36,092 nt of DNA from Aquificota bacterium (GTDB lineage: Bacteria; Aquificota; Aquificia; Aquificales; QOAS01): contig JAADCT010000032.1 of assembly GCA_013154305.1 (NCBI GenBank), positions 1-36,092 of the forward strand, given 5' to 3'. This document shows, piece after piece, positions 1,139-36,092 of the stretch (positions are counted from its first letter, which is position 1; every line of letters starts with the position of its first letter). The notes below the pieces were generated by a model. The model was given only the letters and a program-made list of their open reading frames with translations. It was not told where the DNA came from and searched no databases. The position numbers were made by a program, and so were the translations under genes.

Positions 1139-2359
1139 TCAGCGGTTCTTCTTCTCCCTTTCCTCCCTCACCCGGCCGGCGACCTTGAGGGGCAGACCCC
1201 AGACTTTGGTAAAGAACTTTCCGGCCTCGTGGTCGAAGGCGTCTTTAGGCGAATAGGTGGCCAGGTCCTCGACGTAGAGGGAGTTGGGCGAGCGGCGGCC
1301 CACGACCCAAATGCCGCCCTTGTAAAGTTTAAGCCTCACGTCGCCCGTAACGTCCTTGGCCAAGGTGTCGTTAAACGCGTCGAGGGCCTCCCGCTGTTTG
1401 GAAAACCAGAGGCCGTTGTAAACGAGCGTCGCGTATTGGTGCCTAACGTGCTCTATGTGGTAGTGGTAGGTAAACCTTTCGGTGGTCAGCGAGAGCAGTT
1501 CGTCGTAGGCCTTGTAGAGGATGAAGGCGGCCGGGGCCTCGTAGAGTTCGCGGCTCTTTATGCCCACCAAACGGTTTTCGACCATGTCGACCCTTCCCAC
1601 CCCGTGGCGACCGCCGATTTTGTTCAACTCCTCTATGAGTTCGTAAAGCTTTTCAAACCGCCTTCCGTTGACGGCTACCGGCGTTCCCTCCTCGAAGGTC
1701 ACCGTTACGTATTCGGGCTCGTCGGGGGCCTCCTCCGGGTCGACGGTAATCTGCCACGCGTCCTTAGGGGGCTCTTGCCAAATGTCCTCCAAAACGCCCG
1801 CCTCTATGGACACGCCCCAAAGGTTTCGGTCTATCGAATAGGGCTTTTCCTTCGTAACGGGGACGGGAATTCCGTGCCTCTTGGCGTATTCGATTTCCTC
1901 CTCGCGGGACTTAAACTCCCACTCCCTCACCGGGGCCAAAACCTCAACGTCGGGCGCCAGGGCCCAGGCCGAAACCTCGAACCGAACCTGGTCGTTTCCC
2001 TTTCCCGTGGAACCGTGGGCCACGAAGTCGGCCCCCACCTTCTTGGCTATCTCAATGAGCTTTTTGGAAATCAGGGGCCTCGAAAGGGAGGCCGTCAGCG
2101 GATACTTGCACTCGTAAAGGGCCAAAGCCCTCAGGGTCGGCAGGCAATACTCGCGGGCAAACTCCTCCCTCACGTCCTCCACTATCGCCTCGACCGCACC
2201 GGCGAGTTTCGCCTTCTCGGGAATGTAGTCGAGCTCCTCGCCCTGCCCCACGTCGGCCGTGTAGGTTATCACCTCAAAGCCTCGGTCGGTAAGCCAGCGG
2301 ACGATAACCGAGGTGTCGAGCCCGCCCGAATAAGCCAAGACGACGCGCTTTTTGGCCAT
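1139..2359 (-). CDS. argG: Argininosuccinate synthase
   Basis: KRVVLAYSGGLDTSVIVRWL, GSTGKGNDQVRFE, SIEAGVLEDIWQEPP; 406 aa. Confidence 0.97.
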   Translation of the reverse strand: MAKKRVVLAYSGGLDTSVIVRWLTDRGFEVITYTADVGQGEELDYIPEKAKLAGAVEAIVEDVREEFAREYCLPTLRALALYECKYPLTASLSRPLISKKLIEIAKKVGADFVAHGSTGKGNDQVRFEVSAWALAPDVEVLAPVREWEFKSREEEIEYAKRHGIPVPVTKEKPYSIDRNLWGVSIEAGVLEDIWQEPPKDAWQITVDPEEAPDEPEYVTVTFEEGTPVAVNGRRFEKLYELIEELNKIGGRHGVGRVDMVENRLVGIKSRELYEAPAAFILYKAYDELLSLTTERFTYHYHIEHVRHQYATLVYNGLWFSKQREALDAFNDTLAKDVTGDVRLKLYKGGIWVVGRRSPNSLYVEDLATYSPKDAFDHEAGKFFTKVWGLPLKVAGRVREEREKKNR

Positions 2360-11547: not shown

Positions 11548-14500
11548 TTAGTCGGCCATCAGGTCGCGTTTGACCTCCTCGGGAGAGGGAACCACGAACT
11601 CGGGTTTCTTCTTGAGGACCTTGAGTCTCGAGTAGTAATACATAACCGGAATAAGAACCAGCGTCAGGGTGGTCGAACCTATCGTTCCGAATATCAGCGA
11701 AACGGCCAGTCCGTTGAAAATCGGGTCGAAGATGATAACGAAGGCTCCCACTATCAGCGCGGCCGCCGTCAGCAAAACGGGACGGGTCCTGATAACGCCC
11801 GACTCCACCACCGCCACGTGAAGGGGAACGCCCTCCTTGAGGCGTTGTTCGGCAAAGTCGACGAGCAGTATCGAGTTCCTGATGATGATACCCGCCAGGG
11901 CGATGAAACCTATCATCGAGGTGGCGGTGAAGAAGACGTTACCCATCAACTTGTCCATGAGCCAGTGGCCGGGAATGATACCGACCAGCGTCAGGGGAAT
12001 GGGTGCCATGATAATGCCGGGAATGCGGAAGTCCTTAAACCACGCCAGGATGAGGACCCAAATCAGGAATATCGCACCGATGAAGGCGATACCGAGGTCC
12101 TTGAACACCCGGATGGTGATGTGCATTTCACCGTCCCACTTGACGGCAACCTGTTTGCTGCCCGGCGGCGGCAGGTGGTACCAGTATTCCTCGATTTTTC
12201 CGTAAGGGTTGGGAATGGAGAGAACCTCGTCCCTCACGTCGAGTATCGAGTAGAAGGGAGCCTCGTACTTTCCGGCAACGTCACCGCAAACGTAGACGAC
12301 GCGGCGCATGTTCTTGCGGTAGATGGTGTGTTCGACAAATGCCTCCTCGACCTTAACGATTTCCTTAAGGGGAACGGGCCTTCCCGTTTTGGACATTATC
12401 TTGGTGTTGAGAAGGCGTTCTATGCCGCTCCGTTTGTCCTCGGGAAACTTAACGATGAGGGGAACCTTTTCGGTGTCGGGCGTGTGGAGGTTGGTAACCT
12501 CGTAACCGTAAAGGGCCAGCGCAACGATTGCCCAAATTTCCTGCTTGGTAAAGCCGGCGGCCTTGGCCTTTTGCTCGTCTATGAGGATTTTGTACTTTTT
12601 GCGGTCGACGTCGGCGTAGATGGCCACGTCGGTTACCGAAGGCGACTTTTTAAAGATTTCCCGAACCTTCCAGGCTACCTCCTCGGCCACCTTGTAGTCG
12701 TTGTGGTAGACCTCCGCAACTATAGGCGACAGAACGGGCGGACCGGGCGGAATTTCCACCACCTGCAGGTTCTTAACGCCGAGCTGTTCGGCCAGCGGGT
12801 GAACGAGTTTTCTCAGGTGCTTGGCAAAGTCGTGCGAGCTTATCGCCCTCTCTTCCTTGTTTATCAGGTTGATGTGGATTTCGGCCTGCCAAGGGTATTG
12901 ACGCAGGTAGTAGTGGCGGACCAAACCGTTAAAGTCGAAGGGGGCGGCAGTTCCTACGTAAATCTGGTAGTCGGTAACGATGTTTTGCTTTTTGATAACT
13001 TCGTCGGCGATGGTTTTGGCAACCTCGAGCGTCCTCTCGAGGGAGGTGCCCTCGGGCATGTCTATGACGATGTTGAGCTCCGACTTGTTGTCGTAGGGCA
13101 GCATCTTAACGACGACGAGCTTGGCAAAGAGCATCCATATCGAAAAGCCCATCAGCAGCAGGACCACCAGGTAGAAGGCCCACTTTTTCACCTTCGAGGT
13201 TATCAGCGGTACCACGATGCGGGTGTAGAGCTTCCAGAAGAAGGTTTCCCTGACGTTGTACTCCTCGTGGGGTTTCACGTTTTTAAGGAGCAGATAAGCC
13301 GCCCACGGCGTAATCGTAAAGGCGACCACCGCCGAAAGGGCTATGGCGGTCGAAGCGTTAATGGGAATGGGTCTCATGTAGGGACCCATCAGGCCGCCGA
13401 CGAAGGCCATCGGAATGAGGGCGGCGACGATGGTCGCGGTGGCGAGTATGTTGGGGTTTCCGACCTCGTCGGTGGCCAAAATAATGGCCTCTTTCGGCGT
13501 GACCTTACCCATGGAGAGCCAACGGTGGATGTTTTCGATGACGACTATCGCCGCGTCGACCAGGATACCTATTGAGAATATCAGCGCAAAGAGCGTTACC
13601 CTGTTTAGGGTAAAGCCGTAGAGTTTGCTGAAAAAGAGAGTCAGCGCCAGGATAACGGGAACGGTAATACCGACGACTATAGCCTCCCTCCAGCCGAGGG
13701 CGACCGCTATGAGAAGCACGACCGAAAAGGTCGCGATAAAGAGGTGTTTGATGAGCTCGTTGAACTTCTCCTTGGCGGTTTCACCGTAGTTTCGGGTTAC
13801 GGTTACGTTGAGGTCGCTGGGAATGATGTTCCCTTTGAGGTGTTCGACGGTGCGGATTACCTCCTCGGCAACGTCAACGGCGTTGGTTCCCTTTTTCTTG
13901 GCCACCGCTATGGTGACGGCGGGAAGTTCCCCCTCTAGCTTTTTCTCAATACCCTTTTCCTCGTGGGCCGGTCCGGTTCCGAAAAGGACGTAGTGCTTGT
14001 TTTCGGGTGAGGGACCGTCGATGACGGTGGCCACGTCCTTCAGAAATACGGGCTTTCCGTTGTAGAAAGCTATCACGAGGTTTTCAATGTCGCGCTTGTC
14101 GCGGATAAATTCGCCCGTTTGAACGGTGATGACCCTGTTGTCCTTTACGAAAAAGCCGTTGTCACCGCCGTAGTTGGCCGCCTTGAGGATTTGAACCACC
14201 TGCAGGGGGTGAACGTGGTAGGCCTCAAGCTTTTGGGGGTCCAGGTACACCGTTACCGTCCGGGGTTTACCGCCCACTATGAAAACGGTCGAAACGTCGT
14301 TGAGTTTGTAAAGTTCCTCCTCGATGGCGGCCGCTATTCTGTAAAGCTCGTAGCTGTCGTAGTTTTCACCCCACAGCGTCAGCGTAACTATGGGAACGTC
14401 GTCTATCGACTTGGACATAATGAGGGGGGGGAGCTTTACCCCGTCGGGGATTTTGTCGATACCCTCCATCAGTTTGGAGTTGAGGTTTACGAGGGCCTTG

Positions 14501-31126: not shown

Positions 31127-32362
31127 TTATTCCCTTCCGTGGGTGAGGAAAAAGGCCGTTTCGACCAACAGAAGACCGAAGGTCCACCAAAACTTATTCC
31201 GAAGCGGCAGGGCCAGCAGCAGAAGGGCGGCCGAAACGAATACCAAAACGAACAAAAAGGGGAAGGGGGAAACTTCGAAGTAGACGCTTTCGGGTAAAAC
31301 CTTTAAAAGGTAGCCGAAGGCCTCGGCGAGGGCGTTTTGAAGCCACACCAGCGGCGGCAGCGTCCAAAAGGTCAAGAGGTTAAAGGTTCCCACCACCACG
31401 AAAAACTGGACCAAAACCGTAAACAAAAATCCGAACAGAAAGACGCCGAAGGACAGGTACTTGAAAAAGTAGGCTATCAGCGGATTGATGACGGCCGAAA
31501 CGACGACCGAGGCTTCCAAACCGAAGGTTTTACCGAAAACGGACCGAACGAAGTCCTCCTCCGGCGTCTTTCGGCCGCCGTAGTAGAGAATTAGGGCCAA
31601 GGAGGCCAAGTAGCTGAGCCAAAATCCGACGTTGGTTCCCCAGTGGGGAAAGAGGGCCAGCCAGAGGGCGGCGCTCAAAAAGAGGGCCTTGAGGGGGTCG
31701 TAGTTTCTCAGGAGCAGGCGGGCGACCATAAAGAGGGCCACCGAAACGAAGGCCCTGTAGGCGGGGGCCTTCGGAAAGAGGATGAAAAAGGTGAAGAAGG
31801 TGAAAAAGGCCAGGGCCACCCAGTAGCGCAGACCCCAACGCACGGGCAGGAAGAAAAAGGCCGTCAAAAAAAGCGCGTAGTGCATTCCCGAAATCACTAT
31901 CAGGTGGTATATCCCCAGGTGGGCTATCTTTTCCCTCTCCCTGCGGGAAAACCAGTTTTCGCCAAAGAGCAGGGCCGAACCGACCTTTTTCTGAATTTTG
32001 GTTTCGGCCGTTTGCAAAAAACGCTCCTTTAGGACCGAGCGAACCTTCAATCTCCACCTTTGGAGGAGGGAGCGTTCGACCTTCCAACGCTCGGCGTAAA
32101 CCCGGCCTCCGTAGGCCCTCCCCTCGACGGTCAGGCGGTCGCCGGGATAGACCTTTGCGTTTTTAAGGAAGCGAACCGACCACAGTCGGTTTTCACCGTC
32201 GAGGAGGACCACCCGATTGTAGTTCTTGGCAATCACCTCCCCCGTGAGGGTCACCTTTCCCTCGGCCTTTCCCCACCGGGGGGCGTTCAAGAGCGAGTTA
32301 ACCGCAAAGAGGGAAGAAAGGAGGATTAAAAAGACGAGACTTTTGGAAAGGCGGCGGACCAT
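31127..32362 (-). CDS. ComEC/Rec2-family protein lacking the metallo-beta-lactamase domain
   Basis: OB-like N-terminus, GSALLFGENWFSRREREKIAHLGIYHLIVISGMHYALFL, PKAPAYRAFVSVALFMVARLLLR; 411 aa. Confidence 0.85.
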   Translation of the reverse strand: MVRRLSKSLVFLILLSSLFAVNSLLNAPRWGKAEGKVTLTGEVIAKNYNRVVLLDGENRLWSVRFLKNAKVYPGDRLTVEGRAYGGRVYAERWKVERSLLQRWRLKVRSVLKERFLQTAETKIQKKVGSALLFGENWFSRREREKIAHLGIYHLIVISGMHYALFLTAFFFLPVRWGLRYWVALAFFTFFTFFILFPKAPAYRAFVSVALFMVARLLLRNYDPLKALFLSAALWLALFPHWGTNVGFWLSYLASLALILYYGGRKTPEEDFVRSVFGKTFGLEASVVVSAVINPLIAYFFKYLSFGVFLFGFLFTVLVQFFVVVGTFNLLTFWTLPPLVWLQNALAEAFGYLLKVLPESVYFEVSPFPFLFVLVFVSAALLLLALPLRNKFWWTFGLLLVETAFFLTHGRE

Positions 32363-32365
32363 CGG

Positions 32366-33925
32366 TTAAACGACGCCGGCCGCCCTCAGGGCCCCGTAGC
32401 AGCGCCGGCAAACCTTTTGCCCGTCGGGCAACTCCTCAAACTCCTCTTCGGGAAAGTACAGCCAACAGCGGGGACACTTTTGCCCCTCGGCCGGCGAAAC
32501 GGCCACCTTGAGACCTTTAACCTCCTCCCCTTCCAGCTCCACCGCCCCCTTCGGTTCGGCGGAAAGCTCGACGCGGCTGACGCTCAAGAAGAAGGGAAGG
32601 TAGTCTAGGCGCTCCTCCACCAGGTCCTTAAGCCCGGGCGGCAACCCCAAGACCACCTTAGCCTCGTAGGGATGGCGGACGAGCTTTTGCCGGCGGGCCT
32701 GCTCGAGGGCCCGGTTTACCTCCTCCCTCAACTTGAGGAGTTTCGAGTAGACCTCTTCCAGTTTTTCGTCTATCAGCTCCTCCTTGGGAAGGTACATCGA
32801 CGCCAGAAAGACGCTTTCGGGAAGGTCGGACTTTATACTCCTCCGAACGGTTTGCCAAACCTCCTCGGCCGTAAAGCTCAAAACGGGCGCCAAAACGGTG
32901 GTCAGGGCCAAGAGGAGCTCCCACAAAACGGTTTGGGCACTGCGGCGTTCGCGGGAGTCGGGCGCGTAAACGTAGAGGCGGTCCTTTAAAACGTCGAGGT
33001 AGACGGCCGAAAGCTCGCGGTTTACGAAGGCCTTGAGGGCGCTAAAGGCGCGGTAAAACTGGTATTGGGAAAAGAAGCGGTGAACCTCCTTTAATACCAC
33101 CTGCAGGTGCGAAAGCATCCACCGGTCAAACTCGAGGAGGTCTTCGGGTTTCAGGGCGTCGCGGTCGGGATTAAAGTCGTAGAGGTTTCCGAGCAAAAAG
33201 CGAATGGTATTCCGGATTTTCCGATAGTCCTCGGCGACGGCCTTGAGAACCTGCTCGCCGATTTTAACGTCCTCGGTGTAGTCCTCGCTGACGGTCCAAA
33301 GTCTCAAAATGTCGGCCCCGTAACGCTCGACCACCTCCTGCGGTGACACGACATTTCCCAACGACTTGGACATCTTTCGTCCCTTCTCGTCGAGGATAAA
33401 ACCGTGGGTCAGAACCGACCGGTAAGGGGCCTCGTCGTAAGACGCCACCCCCTCCAGGAGGGACGACTGGAACCATCCCCTGTGCTGGTCGCTTCCCTCC
33501 AGGTACATGTCCGCCTTGGGGATTCCCCTCCTTTTCAGGACCGCCGCGTGGGAGGAACCGCTGTCGAACCAAACGTCGAGGATGTCCTCCTCCTTCTCAA
33601 ATTCGGTCGAACCGCACTTGGGACACCTGTAGCCCTCCGGGAGCAGTTCTTTAGCCTCCTTTTCGAACCAAATGTCGGCGCCGTACTCGTAACTTTCCAC
33701 CAGACGGGCTATGCGCTCGAAAATTTCGGCGTCGGCCAAAACCTCACCGCACCTTTTACAGTAGAAAACGGTTATCGGAACGCCCCAAACGCGCTGGCGG
33801 GAGATGCACCAGTCGGGTCTGTTTTCAACCATCGAACGGATGCGCCTGTATCCGCTTTCGGGTATCCATCGGACCTTGTCTATTTCCTCGAGCGCCTTTT
33901 GGCGGAGGGTCTTTTTCCCTTCCAT
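32366..33925 (-). CDS. ileS: Isoleucyl-tRNA synthetase, C-terminal half only (KMSKS, anticodon-binding and Zn domains)
   Basis: IRSMVENRPDWCISRQRVWGVPI, DILDVWFDSGSSHAAVL, YLEGSDQHRGWFQSSLL, GRKMSKSLGNVVSPQEV, CPRCW..CRRCY; no Rossmann first half, HIGH motif or CP1 editing domain. Confidence 0.92.
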   Translation of the reverse strand: MEGKKTLRQKALEEIDKVRWIPESGYRRIRSMVENRPDWCISRQRVWGVPITVFYCKRCGEVLADAEIFERIARLVESYEYGADIWFEKEAKELLPEGYRCPKCGSTEFEKEEDILDVWFDSGSSHAAVLKRRGIPKADMYLEGSDQHRGWFQSSLLEGVASYDEAPYRSVLTHGFILDEKGRKMSKSLGNVVSPQEVVERYGADILRLWTVSEDYTEDVKIGEQVLKAVAEDYRKIRNTIRFLLGNLYDFNPDRDALKPEDLLEFDRWMLSHLQVVLKEVHRFFSQYQFYRAFSALKAFVNRELSAVYLDVLKDRLYVYAPDSRERRSAQTVLWELLLALTTVLAPVLSFTAEEVWQTVRRSIKSDLPESVFLASMYLPKEELIDEKLEEVYSKLLKLREEVNRALEQARRQKLVRHPYEAKVVLGLPPGLKDLVEERLDYLPFFLSVSRVELSAEPKGAVELEGEEVKGLKVAVSPAEGQKCPRCWLYFPEEEFEELPDGQKVCRRCYGALRAAGVV

Positions 33926-33958
33926 GTCAAAGAGATTAAGTTTAAAGTTCGATAATGG

Positions 33959-34834
33959 ATGGGCTTTTTAAAGCGTCTCTTTTGCTGGGTGGCCTCGGCC
34001 TTCTTTTTAATCTTTCTGGCTTTGATGGGATTGGGCCTTTGGATAAAGAGTAAGCTCCCCACCACCGACAAGGTGGCCCTCGTGCGCATCGAAGGCGTCA
34101 TAAACCGCGCCGACGAGATTCTCTCCAGTCTCAAAAAGGTCGAGGAGGACAGGTCTATAAAGGCCCTCGTTTTGCGCGTCAATTCCCCCGGCGGGGCCGT
34201 CGGCGCCGCCCAGGAAATTTACACCGAACTGCTGAGGATAAAAAACGAGTACAAAAAACCGATAGTGGTGTCTATGGGTAACGTTGCCGCCTCCGGCGGT
34301 CTTTACGTTTCTCTTCCCGCAACGGTAATTTACGCCGAAGGGGGAACCATAACCGGTTCCATCGGCGTCATCGTCCAAAAACTGGACGTTAAGGAGCTGG
34401 CCGCCAAGTTGGGCGTGAAGGTGGAGGTCGTCAAAACCGGAAAGTACAAGGACATCCTAAACCCCTTCAGGGAAATGACGCCGGAGGAAAGGGAGTACCT
34501 TTTGAGGCTCGAAAGGGACGTCCTCGAACAGTTTAAGGAGGCGGTGGTCAAAAACCGCGGGGACAAGCTCAAAGTTTCGATAGAGGAAATAGCCGACGGT
34601 CGGATTTTCAGCGGTCGCCAGGCGCTCGAGATAGGGCTTGTAGACAAACTCGGTAACCTGCAGGACGCCGTTGCCGAGGCGGCCAAACTCGCCGGCATTA
34701 AGGGAAAGCCCACCGTCGTCGAGCTAAAACCCGAAAGACCGCTCTTTAAGAAACTCGTCGGGGCCGAATTCAAAAGTCCCCTGCCCTTTGACGCCGCGAC
34801 GACGGTGGGGGTTTACTACCTACTGCTCTGGTGA
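33959..34834 (+). CDS. sppA: Signal peptide peptidase SppA (short, 36K type)
   Basis: N-terminal TM; LVLRVNSPGGAVGAAQEIY, VSMGNVAASGGLYVSLPA, GTITGSIGVI. Confidence 0.93.
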   Translation: MGFLKRLFCWVASAFFLIFLALMGLGLWIKSKLPTTDKVALVRIEGVINRADEILSSLKKVEEDRSIKALVLRVNSPGGAVGAAQEIYTELLRIKNEYKKPIVVSMGNVAASGGLYVSLPATVIYAEGGTITGSIGVIVQKLDVKELAAKLGVKVEVVKTGKYKDILNPFREMTPEEREYLLRLERDVLEQFKEAVVKNRGDKLKVSIEEIADGRIFSGRQALEIGLVDKLGNLQDAVAEAAKLAGIKGKPTVVELKPERPLFKKLVGAEFKSPLPFDAATTVGVYYLLLW

Positions 34835-34879: not shown

Positions 34880-35482
34880 ATGATTAAGGTCAAAAGCAAA
34901 CCCTTGACCGTCCTCGTGGTGGAGGTCGAGGGTTCCGACCCGGAGGAGGTAAAGCAAAAACTGGAGGAGACCTTCGGCCGGAAGTTCTTTTCCATCGGCA
35001 ACGGAATGCCCTTTCTAATTCAGGCCAAAAACGGCGTTCCCGAAAGCACTATAGCCGAGATTGAAAATTACCTCCGCCAAAAGGGGCTAAAGCCCCTCCT
35101 TCAAACCGTCGGAGGGGACAAAACCGTCAAACAGGTCGACCTGGAAAAGGTCAAAGGGAGCGAAGTCCTCATAGTGAACAAAAACCTCCGGGCCGGACAG
35201 AGCATAGAGCACGCCGGCGACGTTCTCATCATCGGCGACGTCAATCCCGGCGCCCAGGTAAAGGCGACGGGCAACATCATAGTAATGGGAGCCCTCAAGG
35301 GGGTGGCGTGGGCCGGCTACCTCGGCAATCAAGACGCCGTCATAGTGGCCCTTAGGATGGAGCCCCAGCAACTTCGCATAGGAAACATCATCGCCGTTCC
35401 CGACGAGGGAGAACCCAAACCCAAGGCCCCCGAGGTGGCCCGCGTCAAGGGCGACGAAATAGTGATAGAGCCCCTCGTTTGA
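34880..35482 (+). CDS. minC: Septum site-determining protein MinC
   Basis: C-terminal beta-helix NKNLRAGQSIEHAGDVLIIGDVNPGAQVKATGNIIVMGALKGVAWAGYLGNQDAVIVAL. Confidence 0.93.
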   Translation: MIKVKSKPLTVLVVEVEGSDPEEVKQKLEETFGRKFFSIGNGMPFLIQAKNGVPESTIAEIENYLRQKGLKPLLQTVGGDKTVKQVDLEKVKGSEVLIVNKNLRAGQSIEHAGDVLIIGDVNPGAQVKATGNIIVMGALKGVAWAGYLGNQDAVIVALRMEPQQLRIGNIIAVPDEGEPKPKAPEVARVKGDEIVIEPLV

Positions 35483-36092
35483 CGTGAACTACCCCTCTAA
35501 TCTTGTGAGGGGCTTCCTGCTTCAACGAGGGCGAAAGCGTTAACCCCCGCGTTAGCGGGGTGCTATTGTTAGCCCTCTCCACAGGCGTAAGTTCGGGCTG
35601 TCCCAGCCCTACCGCCCGTAAGGTGGGCGACCCCTTCCTTTTAAGTTGTTTTAATCCCTCTTTCAACAGATTTATAGCGGCGTTTATATCCCTGTCGTGC
35701 AGTGTTCCGCACTTAGGACACTTCCACTTCCTGTCGCTCAGCTTTAAATTCTCTTTCTTGTAGTCACATACACTACAAAGTTTTAAACTCGGGAAATAGC
35801 GGTTTACCTTTATCAACACCCTTCCATACCACTTGGCTTTATACTCCAGAAAGCTTATAAACCTCCTCCAAGAGGCATCCGCTATTTGCCTTGATAAATT
35901 GCCTTTTTCAAGCAATTCCTTAACGCTCAAATCTTCAACAATAACGGCTTGGTTATCGCCTATCAGCTTCTTACTTAACTTGTGCAGAAAATCATCCCTT
36001 TGATTTTTAACCTTCTCATAGAGCTTTGCCAACCTTTTTGCAAGTTTTTGGTAATTTTTGCTTCCCTTAACTTTCCTTGATAGTTTCCTTTG
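35445..36092 (-). mobile_element. tnpB: TnpB (IS200/IS605-type OrfB), C-terminal part, partial at window edge
   Basis: QRKLSRKVKGSKNYQKLAKRLAKLYEKVKNQRDDFLHKLS (open to edge), VIVEDLSVKELL, CSVCDYKKENLKLSDRKWKCPKCGTLHDRDINAAINLL. Confidence 0.92.
35483..35640 (-). ncRNA. Probable TnpB right-end element / omegaRNA (reRNA) region
   Basis: Hairpins CCCCTC..GAGGGG (~35492-35511) and CCCCGC-GTTA-GCGGGG (35545-35560), the latter enclosed by GAGGGC (35527-35532)/GCCCTC (35572-35577); minus-strand TTGAAGCAGGAAGCCCC...GGGGTAGTTCAC is typical of TnpB right ends. Confidence 0.6.

Follow-up and report, generated by a model that had tools for sequence, protein, structure and literature searches.

The 36,092-nucleotide contig JAADCT010000032.1 of an uncultured Aquificota bacterium (assembly GCA_013154305.1), referred to here as the window, carries a gene for the C-terminal half of isoleucyl-tRNA synthetase (IleRS), which all cells require for translating the genetic code, and the N-terminal half is encoded on another contig of the same genome. 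Very probably, the product of the window gene is the beta subunit of an obligate two-subunit IleRS that is assembled after translation. A split IleRS had been suggested in an initial annotation of the window, and this interpretation is supported. The gene and its elements, in window coordinates, are as follows.

32366..33925 (-): C-terminal half of isoleucyl-tRNA synthetase (IleRS beta), 519 aa; positions 429-856 of the ileS model TIGR00392; same open reading frame (ORF) in five related genomes
33362..33376 (-): KMSKS signature, residues 184-188 of the C half; invariant alignment columns
32399..32476 (-): C-terminal zinc ribbon CPRC...CRRC, residues 484-509 of the C half
33935..33944 (-): putative -10 element TAAACTTAAT (overlapping TAAACT and CTTAAT), 9-13 nt upstream of the C-half ATG

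The initial annotation described an intact, standalone half with its own ATG, running from just after the CP1 editing domain via KMSKS to the zinc ribbon, and this was borne out. In a phmmer search of PDB chains, the ORF matches residues 416-913 of the 921 of Priestia megaterium IleRS (8c9e; E=3.6e-136), all its nearest solved relatives are IleRS, and KMSKS, the anticodon-binding domain and the C-terminal zinc ribbon are all present. Motif inspection found no HIGH signature in it. The extent first given, 32366-33958, is right at its lower end, but its upper end takes in a 33-bp intergenic stretch, since the ORF stops at 33925. Upstream in frame there are indeed only 14 codons (KAHPLSNFKLNLFD) before a stop. 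A role as a subunit of an Aquifex-type leucyl-tRNA synthetase (LeuRS) was considered and rejected, given that the solved relatives are all IleRS and that the genome's LeuRS is encoded separately.

The HIGH half and the editing domain, which the initial annotation reported as absent, are absent from the window but not from the genome (1.15 Mb in 78 contigs, ~94% complete). The half for which it had proposed a search, carrying HIGH and CP1, is found on contig C40 at 11614-13032 (+), with 472 aa counted from its ATG, and also in relatives. It reads MEEKKKIDLKETLNLPKTDFPMK...HIGH...TTTPWTLPAN...GTGLVHMAPGHGAED...HSYPHCWRC...QWFIAMDEPMGDLPED-stop, and contains HIGH and a complete CP1 editing domain with TTTPWT and GTG..H.AP.HG..D. 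When the genome was searched with TIGR00392 (861 positions, cut-off 621.4 bits), C40:11671-13005 matched model positions 2-430 with 504.7 bits and the window ORF matched positions 429-856 with 458.2 bits, so that the halves jointly fill the model without a gap. Both scores are below the single-polypeptide cut-off, and the search found no full-length ileS elsewhere in the genome, where each half is present in a single copy. Against the solved enzyme 8c9e, the N half aligns to residues 2-418 and the C half to 416-913 of 921; the two are therefore one complete enzyme with nothing missing. The motifs kept across the pair are HIGH, TTTPWT, GTG..H.AP.HG..D, HCWRC, KMSKS and CPRC..CRRC. Neither half is a fragment left by a contig end, because both lie interior to their contigs: C40 is 49 kb long and the N-half gene lies 11 kb inside it, and the window ORF is ~2 kb from the contig end with a complete neighbour gene in between.

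The split is shared by the assessable members of one family (f1), which consists of uncultured, heat-loving Aquificales of one genus (g1), represented by seven draft genomes (G000-G006) that are ~88-95% complete. Both halves, with identical end points and on separate contigs, are present in five of the seven (G000, G001, G003, G004 and G005). Their lengths across the family are ~464-494 aa for the N half and ~519 aa for the C half. The model search found a contiguous or full-length ileS in none of the seven genomes. Across the phylum, a match above the cut-off is found in 115 of 136 genomes; all 30 genera have some ileS match and 29 have at least one genome above the cut-off, g1 being the exception. 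Thus, a contiguous ileS, as the initial annotation had asked of relatives, is found in every other genus of the phylum and in no member of the family. A second case of split ileS was suspected in genome G134 and was rejected, since the pieces stop at contig ends.

In alignments with intact orthologues, the N half terminates a few residues (~6-10) past QWF[IV]AMD. The C half opens with an ATG of its own, slightly ahead (by a few residues) of TLRxxALKEIDRV. The cut thus lies directly behind CP1, in a loop whose length varies among intact Aquificota enzymes, and no conserved residue is lost. The ratio of non-synonymous to synonymous substitutions (dN/dS) in the closest pairs is 0.04-0.10 for N and C halves alike, and both halves are by this measure under purifying selection. 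In the separate N-half and C-half trees, the family is one clade with the same sister group (clade support 1.00 each), and in the joint tree its support is 100/100. Two inserts specific to the family, one of 14 residues (alignment columns 376-389) and one of 16 (columns 455-470), are present in the N half; as a speculation, they might help to hold the pair together. No conserved neighbourhood that would explain the split was seen, and the flanks of both halves vary among the species.

These observations are best explained by a single event in which an ancestral ileS was cut once, behind CP1, in the stem of the family, after which the pieces acquired a stop and a start of their own and were later separated in the genome. 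The alpha subunit would supply the HIGH half of the Rossmann fold and the whole CP1 editing domain, and the beta subunit KMSKS, the anticodon-binding domain and the zinc ribbon. With HIGH in one protein and KMSKS in the other, neither half can be a complete synthetase, and since each holds just part of the catalytic Rossmann fold, the pair must come together after translation. From the split, its conservation, the coverage, the motifs and the selection we infer that the two proteins bind each other, and that the assembled pair aminoacylates and edits. In AlphaFold2 (AF2) models of the single halves, confidence is high for CP1 of the N half, where the model resembles the IleRS editing domains solved as 1wk8 and 1ue0; in the C half it is high for the anticodon-binding and C-terminal domains. 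Much of either half Rossmann fold (1-187 and 1-222) is modelled poorly, with a predicted local distance difference test (pLDDT) mostly of 30-60, as would be expected of half-folds that need each other.

Several points weigh against this two-subunit interpretation. The low pLDDT of the half-folds may also result from the shallow alignments (20-21 sequences). The association and activity of the pair are argued from sequence rather than from protein-level evidence. All genomes of the family are draft assemblies, and two of the seven yielded just one half: G002 (88% complete) has the C half alone, and G006 has an N half that is truncated by a contig end.

Given such assemblies, it might be asked whether an intact ileS was broken in assembly or binning and its ends misjoined to other DNA, as the initial annotation had considered for a point at about 33930. 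The fragmented state of all family drafts and the differences in the flanks of the halves between species would agree with an artefact. However, five assemblies with both halves and two with one share this break, including its stop codon and new start, and the halves are mostly interior to contigs. Genuine contig-end breaks, such as those of ileS in G134 and of dnaE in G000, look different and were recognised as such, and an ileS above the cut-off exists in at least one genome of every other genus. Since these two ORFs recur with unchanged end points on unrelated contigs of several other assemblies, a misjoin is very unlikely, and an artefact of any of these kinds is hardly credible. It is also improbable, if less extremely so, that one or both halves are decaying or repurposed (the N half might, for instance, act alone as an editing hydrolase) and that a normal IleRS is encoded in the missing part of each genome. 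Free-standing editing proteins exist for other synthetases, and the incompleteness of the family genomes would leave some room for such an IleRS. Yet a full-length ileS is found in 0 of 7 genomes while each half is single-copy, and the HIGH and KMSKS of the synthetic site are kept alongside the editing motifs, with a low dN/dS.

Alternatively, the parts might be rejoined before use by trans-splicing, either of the mRNA or of the protein. The dnaE gene of the family has in-frame intein-like insertions (ORFs of 1576-2213 aa), so protein splicing probably exists in the lineage. At the IleRS junction, however, the N half stops ~6-10 residues after QWFIAMD, which leaves no space for the halves of a split intein, and a stop plus a new ATG start is not what trans-splicing requires. 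No traces of a split intein or of trans-splicing were seen in the alignment at the junction, and there is little chance that the halves are rejoined in this way.

The two-subunit IleRS is not the only split enzyme of the family. Valyl-tRNA synthetase (ValRS) is encoded in two pieces of ~690 and 420 aa, cut between ALWPFGVFGWPEITKED and LYPTDLLVTGFD, in every family member that could be assessed (in G000, on C29 and C26; loci L126 and L130). LeuRS is in three pieces, with the Aquifex-type alpha/beta break and a new cut in the C-terminal part of CP1 (in G000, on C49, C57 and C54; L128, L127 and L129), and the three-piece state is also found in relatives. The beta subunit of phenylalanyl-tRNA synthetase (PheRS-beta, pheT) is in two pieces of ~500 and 370 aa, cut near position 443 of the 798 in the bacterial pheT model (in G000, on C63 and C31; L219 and L220), again in relatives as well. 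Its N part has a ~60-aa tail past the clear alignment, and its C part a leading stretch of ~25-40 aa. UvrA is in two pieces of ~250 and 690 aa (L232-L239). The uvrA halves are on different contigs in G004 and G006, and adjoin in G001 with a ~110 bp spacer (L232, G001 C72:1-5000, about 2050-2165 (-)); in G001 the halves have either not yet moved apart after fission or come together again. In the sister-family genomes compared these are single genes, the shared LeuRS break excepted.

Two further families were compared, f2 (probably Aquificaceae) and f3 (probably Hydrogenothermaceae), named from the loci that cluster with them. In f3, a fused LeuRS of ~900 aa is found in two genera and three genomes (L142-L144), and the alpha/beta form in two other genera (L145, L146); the Aquificales LeuRS split was either undone in f3 or is not ancestral there. 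In the split family, a MutL of 432 aa at L128:3930-5225 (+) matches just positions 1-315 of its 555-position family, and is either a naturally short form or another split.

Not all genes are affected. Where the sequence allows a judgement, AlaRS, RpoC, ThrRS, MetRS (643 aa), SMC, RecG, an RND permease and PNPase are intact in the family. At first look, dnaE appeared to be split in G000 and G005; this was rejected, since both G000 parts lie at contig ends and three other members have a single frame with intein-like insertions (G001 C63, G003 C94 and G004 C73; 1576-2213 aa). These interruptions of the dnaE family match are probably inteins. A general shattering of all genes was likewise rejected, because ~18 shorter neighbouring proteins with good family matches are complete. 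Given that short neighbours are complete and several large genes are cut, fission concerns large genes, several synthetases included. The contrast with the short genes has a hypergeometric probability of ~0.006 (~18 short genes, by hand), which is descriptive only because the large families were not chosen randomly; as the families examined for splits were picked, the split counts give no rate.

The way in which genes start might be a condition that favours fission. In most split-gene pieces, an A/T-rich element resembling a -10 box stands a few nt ahead of the ATG, and a Shine-Dalgarno sequence is mostly missing. In the genes sampled from the family, a TANNNT that ends 6-14 nt ahead of the first ATG occurs ~0.57 times per gene, against 0.01-0.06 at internal ATGs, a contrast that is an upper estimate since the internal control is coding DNA of different composition; Shine-Dalgarno-like motifs are found in 13-17%. 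In the stretches from both the split family and f2, TANNNT before the first ATG is common and Shine-Dalgarno motifs are rare, a pattern that possibly reflects leaderless transcription. Short-leader or leaderless starts may make new gene starts cheap and so ease fission: a leaderless start needs little sequence, and fission could therefore be cheap if genes start in this way. Such starts cannot suffice, given that f2 has a similar start pattern without new splits.

The window gene conforms to this pattern. Inspection of its start region found no Shine-Dalgarno sequence upstream of the ATG, and the TAAACTTAAT element is likely to give the C half a short-leader or leaderless start of its own. The CTTAAT 9 nt before the ATG, and the divergent start of sppA at 33959 with 33 bp between the two starts, are as initially annotated. 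The neighbours of the C half are as follows.

31127..32362 (-): ComEC-like protein; begins 3 bp past the IleRS C-half stop codon
33959..34834 (+): signal peptide peptidase SppA, divergent neighbour of the C half

The ComEC-like gene is likely to be co-transcribed with the C half in the window species. Its product has 411 aa, with a match confined to the N-terminal part of ComEC. Neither this gene nor sppA is kept as a neighbour of the C half in relatives. An IS605 OrfB/TnpB gene with a Cas12f1-like TNB domain, at 35445-36092 (-), is cut by the contig end.

The closest known parallel is LeuRS of Aquifex aeolicus, a natural two-subunit alpha/beta enzyme (Ma et al. 2006, cited in PMC4975002). Like IleRS of the family, it is a class I synthetase encoded by separate genes, with the HIGH half and CP1 in one and KMSKS and the anticodon-binding domain in the other; it comes from the same order of bacteria, and its alpha/beta break is also present in the family, where, unlike in Aquifex, the alpha part is cut again inside CP1 to give three pieces. 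The comparison drawn in the initial annotation is thus apt, although the cut site differs: IleRS is cut directly behind CP1, and Aquifex-type LeuRS farther on, ahead of KMSKS.

In archaea, natural splits of AlaRS and of the Glu-tRNAGln amidotransferase are known in Nanoarchaeota (PMC4975002, PMC3655853), and Nanoarchaeum equitans has 10 split protein genes (PMC3655853). As in the family, many large genes are halved in one lineage and functional reassembly after translation is assumed; in contrast, N. equitans is a parasitic archaeon whose genome is strongly reduced and whose split genes are different ones, whereas the family is bacterial and has an intact AlaRS. In Altiarchaeales, pheT is encoded by two non-adjacent genes, a split common to the whole clade (PMC4975002). 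The family pheT is also in two pieces, but the archaeal split is an independent event in another domain of life, with a cut just before B5 as against ~443/798 in the family (not compared residue by residue).

Laboratory-split PheT and IleRS indicate that synthetases can work when cut in loops, whereas the split in the family is natural and conserved. Shiba and Schimmel reportedly found in 1992 that fragments of E. coli IleRS reassemble. PheT of M. pneumoniae has been split in the laboratory, and the cells remained viable (PMC12494982).

Few proteins are as conserved as the aminoacyl-tRNA synthetases, and IleRS and ValRS are regarded as single-chain enzymes. Split synthetases as such are already known; what is new here is a natural split of IleRS and ValRS and a three-piece LeuRS, for none of which was a report found in the open-access literature. 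If IleRS and ValRS do work naturally as two chains and LeuRS as three, they would reveal where the class I fold tolerates a cut, and genetic-code engineering would gain split enzymes that are thermostable. Such split genes may be reported as partial or missing by completeness checks and annotation pipelines. We lean slightly towards regarding the family as a counterpart of Nanoarchaeota among bacteria, a lineage whose large essential genes have repeatedly been cut in loops and scattered, with IleRS, ValRS, PheRS-beta and UvrA as obligate multi-chain enzymes and LeuRS as one of three chains. The adjacent uvrA halves of G001 may be a fission caught before separation. The family would offer a bacterial system for studying how and why essential genes split, along with sister families that are intact and one possible intermediate.
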